A stretch of 33,693 nt of DNA from Microthrixaceae bacterium (GTDB taxonomy: Bacteria > Actinomycetota > Acidimicrobiia > Acidimicrobiales > Microtrichaceae). The notes beneath the pieces are model-generated. The model searched no databases and was not told the origin of the DNA. It was given only the letters and a program-made list of their open reading frames with translations. The stretch spans positions 1 to 33,693 of the forward strand of contig JAGQSZ010000007.1 of assembly GCA_020439285.1 (NCBI GenBank), given 5' to 3'. The position numbers were made by a program, and so were the translations under genes. Below, one piece after another: positions 25,848 through 33,693 of the stretch; position 1 is the stretch's first letter; each line of letters starts with the position of its first letter.

Positions 25848-27755
25848 CTAGTCGAACACTCCGACTGACCGCAGATAGTCGACGACTTTGAGAGCGGAGT
25901 CCTCGGGGGTGACCGCTCCGCTGGTGTCCAGGTGGATCTCTGGGTTCTCGGGCGGTTCATATGGCGAGTCGATGCCCGTGAAGTTCACCAGTTCTCCCCT
26001 ACGGGCTTTGGCGTAGAGACCTTTGGGGTCACGTTCCTCAGCGGCGTCGAGTCCCGAGTCGACGAACACTTCGATGAACTCACCGTCGTCAAGCAGTTCG
26101 CGAGCCATGAGTCGTTCCGCTCGGAATGGCGAGATGAACGACGACAACACGATCAGTCCGGCGTCGACCATCAACGCTCCTACTTCGGCGACTCGGCGAA
26201 TGTTCTCGACCCTGTCGGCGTCGGTGAACCCCAGGTCGCGGTTGAGTCCGTGACGCACGTTGTCACCGTCGAGCAGATAGGTGCGGAGCCCGAGTCCATG
26301 GAGACGTCGTTCGACCAGGTTCGCGACGGTTGACTTGCCTGCGCCGGACAGGCCTGTGAACCAGACCATGACCGGTCGTTGCATGTTCAACTTCGATCGC
26401 GATGCCTTGTCAACGGCGAGGGACTGCCAGTGGATGTTGTCCGCTCGACGCAGAGCGAAGTTGAGCATTCCGGCGCCGACGGTCGCGTTGGTGAACCTGT
26501 CGATGAGGATGAACCCGCCCATCTCGCGGTTCTCGCTGTAGGGGTCGAATGGGATCGCCCGATCCAGACTGATGTTGCACGCACCGATCTCGTTGAGTTC
26601 CAAGGCCGCGGCGGCTGTGTGTTCGAGCGTGTTGACGTTGATCGAGTACTTGGGTCGGGTGACGGTCGCTGTGACAGTCCGGGTGCCGATCTTCAACAGA
26701 TACGGACGGCCCGGCAGGAGTTCGTCATCGGACATCCACACGAGTTGGCATTCGAACTGATCAGCTACCGCTGGAGGAGCGTCGCCGCTCGCGATCACGT
26801 CACCACGCGAGATGTCGATCTCGTCGTCGAGCGCGATCGTGACGGACTGGCCTGCAACGGCCTCTTCGAGGTCACCATCCGCGGTGACGATTCGTGACAC
26901 GGTGCTGGTCTGTCCCGACGGAAGAACACGAACCGGGTCTCCGGGTTGGATCCGACCTCCAACGATCTGACCCGAGAATCCCCGGAAAGTGTGGTCCGGT
27001 CGGTTGACCCATTGGACTGGCATCCGGAATGGACCGTTGATCACATCGTCCGCTACTTCGACGGTCTCGAGGGTTTCCAGCAGCGTCGGCCCGCTGTACC
27101 AGTCCATCTCAACAGAAGGCCTTGTGATGTTGTCGCCGAGCAACGCGGACAGTGGGATGCAGGTCACGTTGTCGATACCGAGTTCTGCAGCGAACGTCGC
27201 GTAGTCGGTTTCGATCGAGCGGAAGGTTTCTTCGGACCAGTCGACGAGGTCCATCTTGTTGACCGCTACCACCACCTCACGAATCCCCAACAACGACACC
27301 AGGTAGCTGTGCCGTCTGGTCTGGGTCAACACTCCTTTGCGAGCGTCGATCAATATGACTGCTAGATCCGCGGTGGACGCGCCGGTGACCATGTTGCGCG
27401 TGTACTGCTCGTGACCCGGGGTATCGGCGACGATGAACTTGCGTCGCTCGGTCGAAAAGAACCGGTACGCGACATCGATCGTTATCCCCTGTTCGCGTTC
27501 GGCGACGAGCCCATCGACCAGCAACGCGAAATCGATCGCGTCACCCTGCGTTCCGACTTTGCGTGAGTCGCTCTCGAGGGCTACCAACTGGTCTTCGAAG
27601 ATCAGGTGCGAGTCGTACAACAGTCGCCCGATCAGGGTCGACTTACCGTCATCGACGCTGCCACAGGTGATGAAACGCAACATCGATTTGTTCTCATGGC
27701 GGCCGAGATAGGCCTCGATGTCACGCTCGAGGAGTTCGTCATGCACGTGGGCCAT
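25848..27755 (-). CDS. cysNC: Bifunctional sulfate adenylyltransferase large subunit / APS kinase (CysNC)
   Basis: A 635-residue fusion. Residues ~1-440 are the GTPase subunit of ATP sulfurylase: G1 loop GSVDDGKS (32-39), [12 protein letters not shown] (G3), NKMDL (G4), then EF-Tu-like beta barrels. Residues ~460-635 are APS kinase with Walker A GLSGAGKS (468-475), [15 protein letters not shown] and the [23 protein letters not shown] block. With CysD it makes APS, then phosphorylates it to PAPS, the sulfuryl donor. Its ATG shares one base with the CysD stop (TGATG). No PAPS reductase or sulfite reductase follows; the PAPS is presumably for the neighbouring sulfotransferase. A weak hairpin lies just downstream, without a T-run. 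Confidence 0.95.
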
Positions 27756-28651
27756 CAGAAATACCCCTCCTGCTTCTTCTTCTCCATCGATCCTGTCGAG
27801 TCGTGATCGATCACACGCCCCTGCCGTTCAGAACTTGTGGCGAGAAGCATCTCTTGGATGATCTCCGTCAGTGTTGAAGCTTGGGACTCGATCGCTCCGG
27901 TCAGCGGATAACAGCCGAGCGTTCGGAAACGCACCGAGCGGTGCGTGACCTCATTTGGATCGACCGGCATCCGATCGTCATCCACCATGATCAGCGTGCC
28001 GTCACGTTCAACAACGGGACGTTGCGCAGCCAGATACAACGGCACGATCGGAATGTCTTCGCGGTAGATGTACTGCCAGATATCGAGCTCGGTCCAGTTG
28101 GACAGCGGGAACACACGCACCGACTCCCCGGGCGCTTTCCGAGCGTTGTACAGCGACCACAACTCGGGACGCTGAGCCTTTGGATCCCAACGATGCTGGT
28201 CGGAACGGATCGAAAACACCCGTTCCTTGGCCCGCGATTTCTCCTCGTCACGCCGAGCGCCGCCGAATGCCAGGTCGAAACGGTGCAGATCGAGCGCTTG
28301 TTTGAGTCCCTCGGTCTTCCAAAGATCGGTGTGCATCGCCGATCCGTGATCGAAGGGATTGATCCCACGGTCCCTCGCATCCGGGTTCTGATACACGATC
28401 AGATCCATGCCCGTCTCGGCGACCCTTTGATCACGAAACTCGTACATCGCACGAAACTTCCACGTGGTGTCCACGTGCATCAACGGAAACGGCGGCAGCG
28501 ACGGATAGAACGCCTTGATCGCCAGATGCAACATGACCGAGGAGTCCTTGCCCACCGAGTACAACATCACGGGGCGTTCACTCTCGGACACGGCCTCCCG
28601 CATGATCTGAATGCTCTCGGCCTCGAGCCGTTGGAGATGCGACAGAGTCAT
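27755..28651 (-). CDS. cysD: Sulfate adenylyltransferase subunit 2 (CysD)
   Basis: A 298-residue ATP-pyrophosphatase-type subunit that forms APS from ATP and sulfate. The PP-loop is [16 protein letters not shown] near 30-45, followed by [37 protein letters not shown] and the [22 protein letters not shown] segment; full family length. I chose ATG 28651 because it forms an ATGA overlap with the sulfotransferase stop; GTG 28660 is the next in-frame alternative. It is the fourth gene in the TetR-DUF1214-sulfotransferase-CysD-CysNC operon. Confidence 0.95.
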
Positions 28652-29874
28652 GTCTGCCACCGGTCAGCGAACGCGAAACGTTCACGGATCAAGCCGGGAT
28701 CGAGACCGAAGTCCCCGGGTGCGTAGTGGTGCGCGCCGTGTTCGTTGCGGGGTCTTGCCCGGTGGTAGGCGTCGACGAATGCCTCCGGGTCTGCGGGGGC
28801 TTCGATGCCGACCGCCTCGTAGATCCGGGCGATGGCAGTTGTCGGCGAAGCGACCAGATCGCTGTATGCCAAGTCGATGATCGTGGCTCCCTGGGAGTGC
28901 GGGTCGTCGGCGTATGCCGCGGCCCGACGGAGCCACAATTCGGTCTGATCGGTTTGGAACCGGCCCACGTCCACCGGATCGACTTCGTCACTGAAGGTGG
29001 AGCGGAACACGGCGAACAGTGACGCTCCGGACGCGATGGTCTCGACAATGTCGCGATGAAGGTGCACCACTACCGCACCGGGGAAGGTGTCGACCAAGGT
29101 TCGTAGTTCAGGCGTGTGAGCGGGGGCCTTGAGGACGAACCTGCGACCGTCGCCGTCGTCCAACAACTGCAGCAGCCGTCGGTACGCCCGGTAGGAGGGA
29201 CCGAGGTCCTCGCCCGCCAACCAGGTCGAGTAGCTCTCGAGTCGAACTGTGGATGACGGGCCCCAGCTCCGCAGGTCCACACCCATGGCGAGGACGCACT
29301 CCTCGGGCAGCCGGTTTCCGTGATCGTGGACCGAGCGGAGTGTCGGATTGAGAAAATGCAACGGCGAGGGCGTCTCGTCCAGCTTGACCAGGAGTTCCTC
29401 GCGTTCTGTTGCGGTCAGTCCAGCGACACGCCAGGGCTGAGTGAGGTCGACTGGCAACAGGGCACGAAGGCGCGGGTCGGTGGCGAGCAGACGGAACAGG
29501 AAAGTCGTGCCCGTGCGCCAGCCACCGGTGATCACGATGGGCGGGAGCAACTCCTTTGTGGCAATGCTCGGATCCTCATCGATTCTGGCGGCACCTTTTG
29601 CACCTGCAATGAGTTTGGATACGGCCTGTTCACCGATCGCTCGGGCACCGAGCGCGTTGAGTCGACCGTCCTCGGCGGCGGATCCGCAGAAATGTTCGAG
29701 GCCAGTTCGCCAGTCACCCACGAACTCGTCGACCGAACCGCCTGCGGCTACGGCTCGTTCGATGACCTCAGCTGGATCCAAGGAGTAGGACTTCGGGTTC
29801 GTCGACCGGTCCGCCTCCGCCATGGCATAGAGGGTGTGGGCATCGTCGGAGCGTGATGGTGCAGTCCAGGTCAT
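28648..29874 (-). CDS. PAPS-dependent sulfotransferase family protein
   Basis: A 408-residue sulfotransferase of the Sulfotransfer_3-like type. The 5'-phosphosulfate loop is [19 protein letters not shown] (113-131). The 3'-phosphate-binding stretch is [25 protein letters not shown] near 275-300, with [22 protein letters not shown] just before. The enzyme transfers sulfate from PAPS to a hydroxyl or amine; the acceptor is unknown. It begins 3 nt after the DUF1214 gene and overlaps CysD by four bases, so sulfate activation and transfer are translationally linked. A later ATG at 29823 is a less likely start. Confidence 0.9.
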
Positions 29875-29877
29875 TGA

Positions 29878-30942
29878 TCAACCCTTCAGTTCAGCAATCG
29901 AACAGCGACGAACCTCGGGCAGCGGCACATCACCCTGGGGCTGGAGCCAGCGCATCACCACCAGACCAAAGTCCCTGCCTTCGGTATCGAGCCAGTCGTG
30001 GGCTCCGCCGGGATCTCGCGCGGAGATGACGAAACTGAACCGGTCTCCGTTGATCCGTGAGTTGCCAGACGTTCGCGAAACCTGGCGGGAGCGGTAGTCG
30101 AGCGAGTTCAGGAACCGGCTGTACAACAGAATATTCCAGTACCTACATGGCACCACAGAACCCTCGATGACGAGCGCTTCGTCAGCTTCGAGTTGCCACG
30201 AGCCGCGCACGTAGTGAATGCCCGGTTCGGTGTAGACCGCTCCTCCTGCCATCTCGGCCCAGTGACGCAACTCGTTGGGACGCTCGATCTCCTCGTTCAG
30301 ACTCGATGCCCATACGTCGGGAACGAAGTTCATCAGGAATCCCAGACGACCAATTCGTTCCTCCAGGTCGGCGGTGTCGAATTCTGCCGGCGTACTCGGA
30401 GGATCGAGAGGCTCGATCGAGGCGGTCCCGAGTTGGTCGTGGGCCACATCGTCATGGAAGTGACGAACCCAGACGACGTTCGCACCCTCCTCCATCTGCA
30501 GCCAGTCGCCGGACTCGGGCTGCTCTTGAGACACGATCACTTCGAAGCGGCCATCTGCATCGACGTTGATCGTGTCACTGTCGATCCGCCCGGCCGCTTT
30601 GGCAGCAAGCGGGATACCGGAATACGCAGTGATCGATTGGTAAACGGCGTCACCAACCGTCCCCGTAATTCGGTAGCGCCGGTCGTCGCGCACATCCGCG
30701 ACCCAGTACCGGAAGTCCGGGTTGTCCATGAAGAACTTCTGGCGCCAACCGTTGAAGGGCACCAGTTCCGGACGTTCCAAGTCCACCTCGAAACGACCGA
30801 GTTGGTTGTTGAACGCTCGCAACAGCGCCCTGTAACCATCAGCCCGCTCGGCGTCATCCAGATCGGCGGTGTTCGCCGCGACCTTCTCACCAGCTTGTCG
30901 AAGACTCTCGACCAACGCTGTCCAAGTTTGTTCGATCGGCAC
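29878..30942 (-). CDS. DUF1214-domain protein
   Basis: A 354-residue protein. The C-terminal ~120 residues (WNILLYSRFLNSLDYRSRQVSRTSGNSRINGDRFSFVISARDPG...HDWLDTEGRDFGLVVMRWL) match the DUF1214 fold, and the central part (GDAVYQSITAYSGIPLAAKAAGRIDSDTINVDADGRFEVIVSQEQP) is the usual preceding beta region. No enzymatic activity is established for these proteins. Start is GTG 30942 with AGGAG 5 nt upstream. It sits between tetR (32 bp) and the sulfotransferase (3 bp), so it probably helps with the sulfated product or its precursor. Confidence 0.82.
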   Translation of the reverse strand: MPIEQTWTALVESLRQAGEKVAANTADLDDAERADGYRALLRAFNNQLGRFEVDLERPELVPFNGWRQKFFMDNPDFRYWVADVRDDRRYRITGTVGDAVYQSITAYSGIPLAAKAAGRIDSDTINVDADGRFEVIVSQEQPESGDWLQMEEGANVVWVRHFHDDVAHDQLGTASIEPLDPPSTPAEFDTADLEERIGRLGFLMNFVPDVWASSLNEEIERPNELRHWAEMAGGAVYTEPGIHYVRGSWQLEADEALVIEGSVVPCRYWNILLYSRFLNSLDYRSRQVSRTSGNSRINGDRFSFVISARDPGGAHDWLDTEGRDFGLVVMRWLQPQGDVPLPEVRRCSIAELKG

Positions 30943-30974
30943 GGCGTCTCCTTGTGATTGTCGGGTCGTGATTG

Positions 30975-31589
30975 TCAGGTCGTGCGTTTTGATCCACGTC
31001 GAGCCGGACGACCCATGAGCGGTTTGACCATCGCCCCGTACTGATCCAGCAGTCGTTCATGGGTGAAGATCGCGGGATCTGCCAGCCGCAGGCGGACCAG
31101 TTCATCAGCCACTGCCTGCATCAGGCGGGCGGCTAGGTCTGGGTCGCTCACACTGTCTGTTTCGCTGACTCCCCCGCCGAGAGTCTCGATCACATAGCGG
31201 CGGATTTCGGCACGGGCTCGTTCCAGTGCCTCGGCCAAAGCCGGCGGACCTGCCGGGGGTAGAACGAGGAACATTCGCCATGTGGCAGGGTCAGCATCGA
31301 CCGCGTCGAGAACCCGTGCCATTGCTTCGACCGGCGAGACCGCTGACCAGTCAGCCGTTGCAGCTGTCAGTGCTTCACCGGCACGGTCAGTCGCTCGTTC
31401 GATCACCGCGTCGAAGAGACCGTCGAGTCCGCCGAAGTGTTGGTAGAGCACTGTTCGGGACACGCCGGCATCGTTCGCCACTCTGTCGAGGGTGGCGGCA
31501 TGGAATCCCTCGACGTCCACGATCCGGGCGCACAGATCAAGCAGTTGCTCTCGCCGCTGCGGTGCCGACATGCGAGAAGACGATCCCAT
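30975..31589 (-). CDS. TetR-family regulator of the sulfation operon
   Basis: A 204-residue regulator with the TetR DNA-binding domain at about 10-60 (QRREQLLDLCARIVDVEGFHAATLDRVANDAGVSRTVLYQHFGGLDGLFDAVIE) and a helical ligand domain. It is the first gene of the operon. The -10-like TAAGTT 6 nt upstream of ATG 31589 is itself the arm of an inverted repeat, and the same control element is duplicated at 32513, so I infer autoregulation plus control of the genes next to the second copy. The ligand is unknown. Confidence 0.9.
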   Translation of the reverse strand: MGSSSRMSAPQRREQLLDLCARIVDVEGFHAATLDRVANDAGVSRTVLYQHFGGLDGLFDAVIERATDRAGEALTAATADWSAVSPVEAMARVLDAVDADPATWRMFLVLPPAGPPALAEALERARAEIRRYVIETLGGGVSETDSVSDPDLAARLMQAVADELVRLRLADPAIFTHERLLDQYGAMVKPLMGRPARRGSKRTT

Positions 31590-31595
31590 GAAGGG

Positions 31596-31601
31596 AACTT
31601 A
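31596..31601 (-). promoter_or_regulatory. Putative -10 box of the tetR-sulfation operon
   Basis: Minus-strand TAAGTT followed by 6 nt and the ATG at 31589. It overlaps the operator-like repeat that begins at 31596. Confidence 0.45.
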
Positions 31602-31632
31602 TGCCATGTAAGTTACAGGTTGCAAGTTATAT
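31598..31632. promoter_or_regulatory. Operator/promoter element, copy 1
   Basis: CTTATG, 4 variable nt, GTAAGTTACAG, 1 variable nt, TTGCAAGTTATAT. The 35-bp unit is identical to copy 2 (32513-32547) at 31 or so positions. AACTTA (31596-31601) and TAAGTT (31609-31614) form an inverted repeat with a 7-bp spacer, and AAGTTA recurs 14 bp further on, giving three similarly spaced half-sites. It lies directly in front of tetR. Confidence 0.75.
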
Positions 31633-31641
31633 CCACGTGCC

Positions 31642-31692
31642 GTGCCCTATCGCATCATCGTTCGGATTTCGATCAGGCCGGCAGTCCCTTGA
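31642..31692 (+). pseudogene. Decayed 5' stub of an oxidoreductase gene
   Basis: GTG at 31642 lies exactly 9 nt after the operator copy, as does the ATG 32557 of the intact-length gene behind copy 2. The first codons read M-P-Y-R-I-I-V against M-S-Y-R-I-V-I. After that similarity continues only if one base is assumed lost (GAT CAG GCC GGC against GGT CAG GTC GGT), and the frame stops at 31690. The rest is replaced by the 3' end of the alarmone synthetase gene (stop at 31673). I read it as a truncated duplicate. Confidence 0.6.
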
Positions 31693-32386
31693 TCTCGTGG
31701 TGGAGTCGTTGCATGTGATTGTCGAGCTCCGCAGCCGTGATCGCCGCGTTGTGGAGTTCAGCCAAGAGGCCCTCAGGAACTGATCGGTCGTACTTGTAAT
31801 AGATCTTGTGCTCCAAGGTCGCCCAGAAATCCATCGCTACCGTCCGCATCTGCAGTTCGACATCTATGATCTGCGGACCGGACGACAAGAAGTCCGGGAT
31901 CTGGACGATCGCATGCAGACTCCTATAGCCGTTCGGCTTGGGTTCGCTGATGTAGTCCTCCACCTCGACAACCGTGACGTCGGTCTGACGAGAGAGGATG
32001 TCGAACACTGAGTACACATCAGCCTCGAAGCTGCACACGACCCGCACCCCAGCGACATCGCGGATCTGATGCTTGATTGCTTCCAAGTCCATTGGACAGC
32101 CGCGACGTCGCGCCTTTTCGACGATGCTTGTCGGACTCTTCACCCGAGACTCGACGTGTTCGATCGGGTTGTAGTCGTGAACGTATGCGAACTCGTCACG
32201 AAGGATTTCCAACTTGGTCGTGATCTCACGAATCGCGAACTGATACGGCATCACGAAACTCGCAAGGTCACGCGTCAGAGTTGCCAGGTTCTCAAAGTGG
32301 TCAGTTGGGCCAACCGTCGGATCACCCGCCTCCGGCACTTGCATCAACTGCGCACTCGGTACGGGAACTAGATCGGGACCGACCAT
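31673..32386 (-). CDS. Small alarmone synthetase (RelA/SpoT synthetase domain)
   Basis: A 237-residue single-domain (p)ppGpp synthetase, like RelQ/RelP-type proteins without hydrolase or regulatory domains. Core motifs are ESRVKSPTSIVEKARRR (79-95), IRDVAGVRVVC (108-118), EPKPNGYRSLH (148-158) and VELQMRTVAMDFWATLEHKIYYK (176-198), where the acidic E177 and the R-x-K and NGYRSLH residues bind nucleotide and metal. ATG 32386 has AGGAG 5 nt upstream, preferred over the open-frame start at 32434. It sits between the duplicated operators, which suggests co-option by the TetR circuit. Confidence 0.9.
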   Translation of the reverse strand: MVGPDLVPVPSAQLMQVPEAGDPTVGPTDHFENLATLTRDLASFVMPYQFAIREITTKLEILRDEFAYVHDYNPIEHVESRVKSPTSIVEKARRRGCPMDLEAIKHQIRDVAGVRVVCSFEADVYSVFDILSRQTDVTVVEVEDYISEPKPNGYRSLHAIVQIPDFLSSGPQIIDVELQMRTVAMDFWATLEHKIYYKYDRSVPEGLLAELHNAAITAAELDNHMQRLHHEIKGLPA

Positions 32387-32488
32387 CGAAACTCCTTGGA
32401 GATGTGAACTCAACGTCCCCATTCTCGGGGCCACAGCTTGGAGGAACCTGAGAACTCACCGAGACGTTCCCATGAGAGATACCTCCGA

Positions 32489-32507
32489 TCCACGGAGACC
32501 TCGTGGA
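32489..32507. repeat. Short inverted repeat upstream of operator copy 2
   Basis: TCCACG and CGTGGA with a 7-nt spacer, in the 126-bp stretch between the alarmone synthetase start and operator copy 2. Purpose unknown. Confidence 0.35.
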
Positions 32508-32512
32508 GGATC

Positions 32513-32547
32513 CTTATGGGTCGTAAGTTACAGTTTGCAAGTTATAT
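32513..32547. promoter_or_regulatory. Operator/promoter element, copy 2
   Basis: The same 35-bp unit as 31598-31632, 915 bp to the right and in the same orientation. Its 3' end supplies TATATT (32543-32548), a good -10, 8 nt before ATG 32557. It lies between the divergent alarmone synthetase and oxidoreductase genes. Confidence 0.75.
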
Positions 32548-32556
32548 TGTCTCCCC

Positions 32557-33624
32557 ATGTCGTATCGCATCGTCATATGGGGTCCCGGTCAGGTCGGTCG
32601 AGCTGTCTTGCGGACGGCACTCGCTGGCTCTGACTTCTAGGTCGTCGCAGTGAAGGCCCGCAAGGACCGACCCGACGGCATCCGTGGCGTTCCAGTGGTG
32701 ACCACGACCGAAGCGGTGCTAGAGTTGGCCCCCGATTGCGTGGTCCTGACCCCTGCTGCCGCGTCGATTTACAAGGGCCTCGATGACGATGTCATCACTC
32801 TGTTGGGGGCTGGAATCAATGTCGTGTCGACCGCCGCTTATCACAGCCCTTCCGCGGTCAACTTTCTCTCACCCAAACGTGCCACCGCAACGCAGTTGAT
32901 CGAGGCCGCCGAACGGGGTGGAGCGACCTTGCACGGCACCGGTGTGCACCCGACGTTCATGGTTGAACGGGTCATCCTGACCCTGGCCCAAGCGCTCGAC
33001 GAGGTCGACCACATTCGCTTCGTCGAGGCCGCGAACTTCTCCGGCGCACCGGACTCGATGTGGGGTGGCCTTGGTGCGCTCGGACTCGGCAAGCCGCTCG
33101 ACGAGGTGACCTCTGATCATCCCGTCGCCATGGGCGGAGATATCTACTACGGGGACGTGATCGTCAATGTCGCCGAGGCGCTCTTCGATGCCGCTCCGGC
33201 TGACGTGCGAGTGGAGCGGTCGTTCCGTGGCGTTCCGAGCGATCGTGACGTCACGATCGGAAGCACCGAGATTGCCGCGGGTACCGCGGGTGCTGTCCAT
33301 CTGGTCCACCGCGGCTATCTGGGTGACCGCCACTTCTTCACCAACGAGGAGTGCTGGTACCTCGGTGACGCCGTTACCTTCAGGGGCGAGGATCTTCCCT
33401 TCGGTGGATTCAAGGGCGATGCCAGCTACACCGCCGAAATCACCGGACGTCCGACTCCGATGCGCCTGCAGATCGAGTTCGACCCCGTCGACGGAGGTCC
33501 CGATCCAATCACCACCGGCTCGGTTCGAGCGGCTCTCGCAGCCATTCCTGCTGTCGTCGAGGCCGATCCGGGAATCCTGGTGGATGACGTCCGACCGAGA
33601 TATCGGCACCACCAACCATCCTGA
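32557..33624 (+). pseudogene. NAD(P)-binding oxidoreductase (dihydrodipicolinate-reductase-like) interrupted by in-frame TAG
   Basis: Reading from ATG 32557, MSYRIVIWGPGQVGRAVL contains the Rossmann motif GPGQVG. Codon 28 is TAG (32638-32640), after which the same frame continues for 328 codons with clear family sequence: DCVVLTPAAAS, a GINVVSTAAYHSP segment, HGTGVHPTFMVERV and DHIRFVEAANFS. The protein resembles DapB-like or amine-dehydrogenase-like reductases of ~340-360 residues, and length with read-through would be 355. The internal GTG at 32650 would give a 324-residue product without the nucleotide-binding motif. One base change (for example GAG to TAG) would explain it; a sequencing error or read-through cannot be excluded. 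Confidence 0.75.
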
Positions 33625-33693
33625 TTCAATAGCGAGCGATCTTGGGATTCCGGTCACCATTTGGCCGTCAAGCGAACCGGCCTAGTGAACCAA
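33625..33693. other. Window end, no gene recognised
   Basis: The last 69 bp after the oxidoreductase stop show no start site, hairpin or repeat that I can support. Confidence 0.5.

Follow-up and report, generated by a model that had tools for sequence, protein, structure and literature searches.

How does a newly arrived alarmone synthetase gene come under the control of its new host? Horizontal spread as stand-alone modules has been proposed for small alarmone synthetases (PMC3153485), and how such an arrival gains regulation is rarely visible. We analyzed a stretch of 33,693 nucleotides (the window) from a Microthrixaceae bacterium (GenBank assembly GCA_020439285.1, contig JAGQSZ010000007.1), in which a synthetase gene lies between two copies of a repeat beside a tetR gene. 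At this locus both the junction and the duplicated predicted operator are visible, and relatives show the single-operator state, which makes it a case of possible regulatory capture. From left to right, the layout is a leftward tetR gene, an operator, the 5' remnant of an oxidoreductase gene that meets the end of a leftward small alarmone synthetase gene, a second operator, and a rightward oxidoreductase gene (Table 1). We regard the locus as a probable case of local rewiring that may affect regulation, and not as a new kind of system. In the literature searched, we found no paper in which a small alarmone synthetase was connected in such a way with a TetR operator.

Table 1. Features of the locus and of the adjoining leftward cluster (window positions; operators are predictions)
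Feature	Position	Strand	Basis and remarks
CysD-like gene and CysN-CysC fusion-like gene	27755-28660 and 25848-27755	-	Pfam PAPS_reduct, GTP_EFTU, APS_kinase
Sulfotransferase gene	28648-29874	-	Pfam Sulfotransfer_3; kept in relatives
DUF1214 gene	29878-30942	-	Pfam DUF1214; kept in cluster of relatives
tetR regulator gene	30975-31589	-	Pfam TetR_N 6e-9; first gene of leftward cluster
Left predicted TetR operator copy	31596-31632	.	Dyads CTTAT-GCCAT-GTAAG (31598) and GTTAC-AGGTT-GCAAG (31612); just upstream of tetR
Oxidoreductase 5' remnant	31642-31681	+	GTG, MPYRIIV, frameshift; gapped alignment to 32557-32597 continues through
Small alarmone synthetase gene	31673-32386	-	RelA_SpoT 1.6e-33; YwaC (6fgk) 9e-59 over 203/210 residues
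Right predicted TetR operator copy	32511-32547	.	Dyads CTTAT-GGGTC-GTAAG (32513) and GTTAC-AGTTT-GCAAG (32527); between synthetase and oxidoreductase
NAD(P)-dependent oxidoreductase-like gene	32557-33624	+	Homologues 40-58% identity

A single-domain alarmone synthetase

The synthetase gene likely starts at the ATG at 32386, which has a Shine-Dalgarno sequence (AAGGAG) and gives a protein of 237 amino acids; the open frame from the GTG at 32434 would give 253. RelA_SpoT is the only Pfam domain (115.7 bits versus a cut-off of 27), and there is no hydrolase or regulatory domain. The closest solved structure is YwaC, with YjbM less close, and by comparison with YwaC the catalytic domain is complete and all of the invariant positions are intact. 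The protein thus has both the single domain and the conserved catalytic residues of a small alarmone synthetase, and in these two respects it is like the RelP/RelQ-type enzymes YwaC and YjbM. It is predicted to make (p)ppGpp. The score against the NCBIfam equivalog for YjbM (GTPPhKinYjbM) was 190.3 bits, below the curated cut-off of 320. The toxSAS enzymes (e.g., FaRel2) are also small single-domain synthetases, but we saw no adjacent cognate antitoxin gene in the window, where the neighbors are tetR and the oxidoreductase, and the nearest solved relatives are YwaC and YjbM. The only PADLOC match was PDC-S33, covering just the RelA_SpoT region.

The synthetase ends in LPA-stop, whereas its nearest actinobacterial homologues run on for about 10 to 40 poorly conserved C-terminal residues. 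The missing tail lies outside the part that aligns with YwaC. The antisense strand of the left oxidoreductase remnant supplies the stop codon and the last two residues (PA), so that one junction truncates both genes.

No close homologue of the synthetase was found among 98 near relatives, and for this reason the gene looks acquired. The best homologues in 396 genomes drawn from the phylum are 51 to 57% identical and occur in other families. GC3 is 0.71, like that of the neighboring genes (GC content, 0.57 versus 0.58 to 0.64), so composition says little about a foreign origin. Phage and plasmid homologues were considered as a source and rejected: they are less than 60% identical, and the three plasmid loci inspected lack the tetR-oxidoreductase neighborhood found in the window.

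A repeat with matching first codons flanks the synthetase

A repeat search found two copies 915 bp apart (78 nt, 72% identity), and a gapped alignment widened the span of homology to 31582-31681 versus 32497-32597, with one gap. This alignment scored 79, and the best of 500 shuffles scored 33. The core TAAGTTACAG[G/T]TTGCAAGTTATA, at 31609 and 32524, has two matches in the window where 0 are expected, and a slightly shorter core pattern, allowing up to three mismatches, has only two matches in the whole assembly, both of them the repeat copies. The first-pass annotation had described a recurring element at this distance, which our alignments bear out over a longer extent than it reported. It had also placed a gene start behind each copy. 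Exactly 9 nt do separate the ...TATAT end from the first codon in both copies (GTG 31642 and ATG 32557), and the first codons match (MPYRIIV on the left and MSYRIVI on the right). The left start, however, opens a frameshifted frame of 16 codons that ends at TGA 31690-31692 and shows a 1-nt gap when aligned with the right copy; the right start opens a frame interrupted by TAG. The conserved starts therefore lead to a remnant and an interrupted gene. The repeat search found no terminal inverted repeats of the kind that end mobile elements around the synthetase (30500-33693), and there was no Rfam match to an RNA element up to an E value of 1 near the locus (31500-32700).

The in-frame TAG at 32638-32640 is codon 28 of the oxidoreductase, where three relatives (L073, L074, and L076) have Glu or Asp. 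It leaves a long open frame only from the GTG at 32650, without the GPGQVGRA nucleotide-binding motif; the rest of the frame is open for 324 codons. The NCBIfam match of the gene, 2,4-diaminopentanoate dehydrogenase-like, is far below the cut-off. Relatives of this oxidoreductase are rare. Within the family, one was found only in genome G010, and at the thresholds used there were none in the other sampled genomes of the order, class, and phylum; none was found on plasmids. The one further genome sampled from the host's genus has neither this oxidoreductase nor the tetR. The G010 gene (L002:1121-2161, minus strand, G010:C6) has an internal TGA and is missing about 32 residues of the window protein, making two damaged oxidoreductases in the family.

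In another relative (L073:7836-10387), two tandem oxidoreductase paralogues overlap at the stop of one and the start of the other; each begins M-K-PYR-(L/V)-IIWGPG or alike, and one operator region lies ahead of them. We rejected the idea that the second operator came directly from such an arrangement because there is no operator between the two paralogues, so that it shows gene duplication but not a route to operator duplication.

The repeat carries a predicted TetR operator

Each copy of the repeat contains a main dyad and, 14 nt after it, a weaker one, with the central half-site common to both. Exactly two dyads with no more than one mismatch occur in the window, at 31598 and 32513, and CTTAY-N5-GTAAG has exactly two matches in the 3.2-Mb host assembly, at the two repeat copies. 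When the two window copies are aligned, the operator cores are kept far better than the flanks. Both half-sites, CTTAT and GTAAG, match exactly, and drift has altered the 5-nt spacer (GCCAT/GGGTC) and the leader (4/11), the pattern to be expected were TetR binding the conserved feature.

CTTAC-N5-GTAAG dyads are present in the tetR-oxidoreductase gap of all six distant relatives that have a divergent homologous tetR (each gap has one to three dyads with up to two mismatches, and no gap is without a dyad that has one mismatch at most). In L073 they take the 14-nt arrangement of the window as a mirror image. The three relatives without a homologous tetR (L070-L072) have no such dyads. In G010, of the same family, CTTACATATTGAAAG lies just upstream of tetR, a dyad with one mismatch. 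By this footprinting across relatives, the reading of the repeat element as the operator of the window's TetR is well supported, and the palindrome is kept together with its regulator as in an autoregulated divergent TetR locus. A literature search on the operator word found no papers.

Single-operator relatives lack the synthetase

Our comparison set comprised twelve oxidoreductase-relative loci from the genome collection and the G010 locus (L069). A homologue of the window tetR is present in L073, L074, L076-L079, and G010, and no alarmone synthetase was found in any of the loci L069-L081. In six relatives tetR is divergent from the oxidoreductase; each of them has a single operator region, none carries the synthetase, and the two-operator state of the window is therefore derived. 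Gordonia sp. ABSL1-1 (L076) and Actinomadura sp. WMMA1423 (L077) have homologous divergent tetR and oxidoreductase genes with CTTAC-N5-GTAAG dyads between them, as in the window, and the Actinomadura locus shares the DUF1214 and sulfotransferase genes too. Unlike the window, both have one operator region, no alarmone synthetase, and an oxidoreductase that is open from its start. We found no second locus of the window's kind, and the case is that of one draft genome.

Proposed history and regulation of the locus

We moderately favor a model in which the operator and the oxidoreductase start were duplicated, an acquired synthetase came to lie between the copies, and TetR probably represses the synthetase. 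We infer an ancestral locus in which tetR and the oxidoreductase diverged from one operator, with both directions repressed by TetR. The operator and the oxidoreductase start would have been duplicated in the host lineage, and the gene for a small (p)ppGpp synthetase, gained by horizontal transfer, would have ended up between the copies, directed at tetR. The left junction would have cut both genes, leaving about 40 bp of one oxidoreductase copy, whose antisense strand would supply the synthetase stop codon. The left operator would still serve tetR along with its cluster, TetR probably acts through the right operator to repress the synthetase too, and a TetR ligand would then induce (p)ppGpp synthesis. 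Duplication of the operator and oxidoreductase start, with the synthetase arriving then or later, would account for the remnant, for the truncation of both genes, and for the orientation. Most likely, the synthetase gene was gained by horizontal transfer and came to lie next to a duplicated operator in a sulfonation-like cluster under TetR control. TetR control of the synthetase is plausible from the position and conservation of the right operator.

The first-pass annotation had proposed that tandem duplication or insertion placed the synthetase in a TetR-controlled locus. The derived state indicated by the single-operator relatives and the acquired look of the synthetase agree with this; the tetR-oxidoreductase junction, to which it had pointed, has a single operator region in six relatives that lack the synthetase and both copies in none. 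Its placing of a gene start behind each copy needs correction: the left copy leads only to the remnant, and a stop codon interrupts the right gene. In the stretch that separates the synthetase from the right operator, no remnant of the oxidoreductase (including its 3' end), tetR, or DUF1214 scored above shuffles; with no oxidoreductase 3' end or second tetR there, the evidence for the duplication step comes from a single side. Nor was a second junction recognized on the right; a tandem duplication that preceded the insertion therefore looks the same as insertion of a synthetase with its own operator, and the repeat may have arisen either before the synthetase or with it.

A bolder version of the model seems to us rather doubtful: the operator duplication would have recruited the acquired synthetase into a metabolite-sensing TetR regulon by the PAPS/sulfotransferase cluster, with the ligand setting alarmone synthesis and an orphan rightward promoter of the left copy giving antisense RNA to the synthetase. 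The synthetase could also have been inserted into the TetR-controlled locus with its own promoter, the right operator serving only the oxidoreductase and the duplication having no effect on (p)ppGpp. The distance of about 125 bp from the right operator to the synthetase start would suit this explanation, as would the roughly 110 bp ahead of the ATG, which have no assigned feature and offer a good Shine-Dalgarno site. Hexamers of the tetR type in the right copy (TTGCAA-16-CATAAG) are moreover weak and failed a promoter scan in which no sigma-70-like promoter passed. Yet the right copy retains both half-sites and the leftward hexamers despite the drift of the spacer, and although the oxidoreductase alone could account for that retention, we regard an independent promoter as unlikely.

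The locus might instead be decaying, with the oxidoreductase a pseudogene and the synthetase a truncated, inactive passenger. The in-frame TAG in the window oxidoreductase and the damage to its G010 counterpart fit such a history, as does the report that RelP variants of Corynebacterium glutamicum have no detectable synthetase activity (PMC5566576). The completeness of the synthetase's catalytic domain, the long open remainder of the oxidoreductase frame, and the operator cores that have outlasted their flanks make decay improbable. An assembly artefact, in which the loci of two related strains were joined through the repeat, is the least likely rival and, in our judgment, highly improbable. 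The draft genome has 519 contigs, 76% completeness, and 3.7% contamination, and the feature lies near a contig end, but the longest exact match between the copies (about 13 nt) is too short to mislead common assemblers, and tetR, DUF1214, sulfotransferase, and oxidoreductase genes all occur together in G010.

The leftward cluster behind tetR

Homologues of the window TetR with 42 to 51% identity occur near the same oxidoreductase in seven relatives. The series of tetR, DUF1214, and sulfotransferase genes leading to CysD-like and CysN-CysC-like genes suggests a sulfonation cluster that supplies its own PAPS, a role that the last two genes likely fill beside the sulfotransferase. Our literature search found no papers on DUF1214 with sulfotransferase and TetR. 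In G010, the sulfotransferase gene comes after a tetR-DUF1214 frame, with a convergent oxidoreductase gene at the far end. That frame (G010:C6, L069:8751-10430) joins the tetR and DUF1214 homologues in 559 amino acids and is possibly a fusion; the two are separate genes in the window. Between the start of DUF1214 and the end of tetR in the window (30954-30981) are two tandem 14-mers, GTGATTGTCGGGTC and GTGATTGTCAGGTC.
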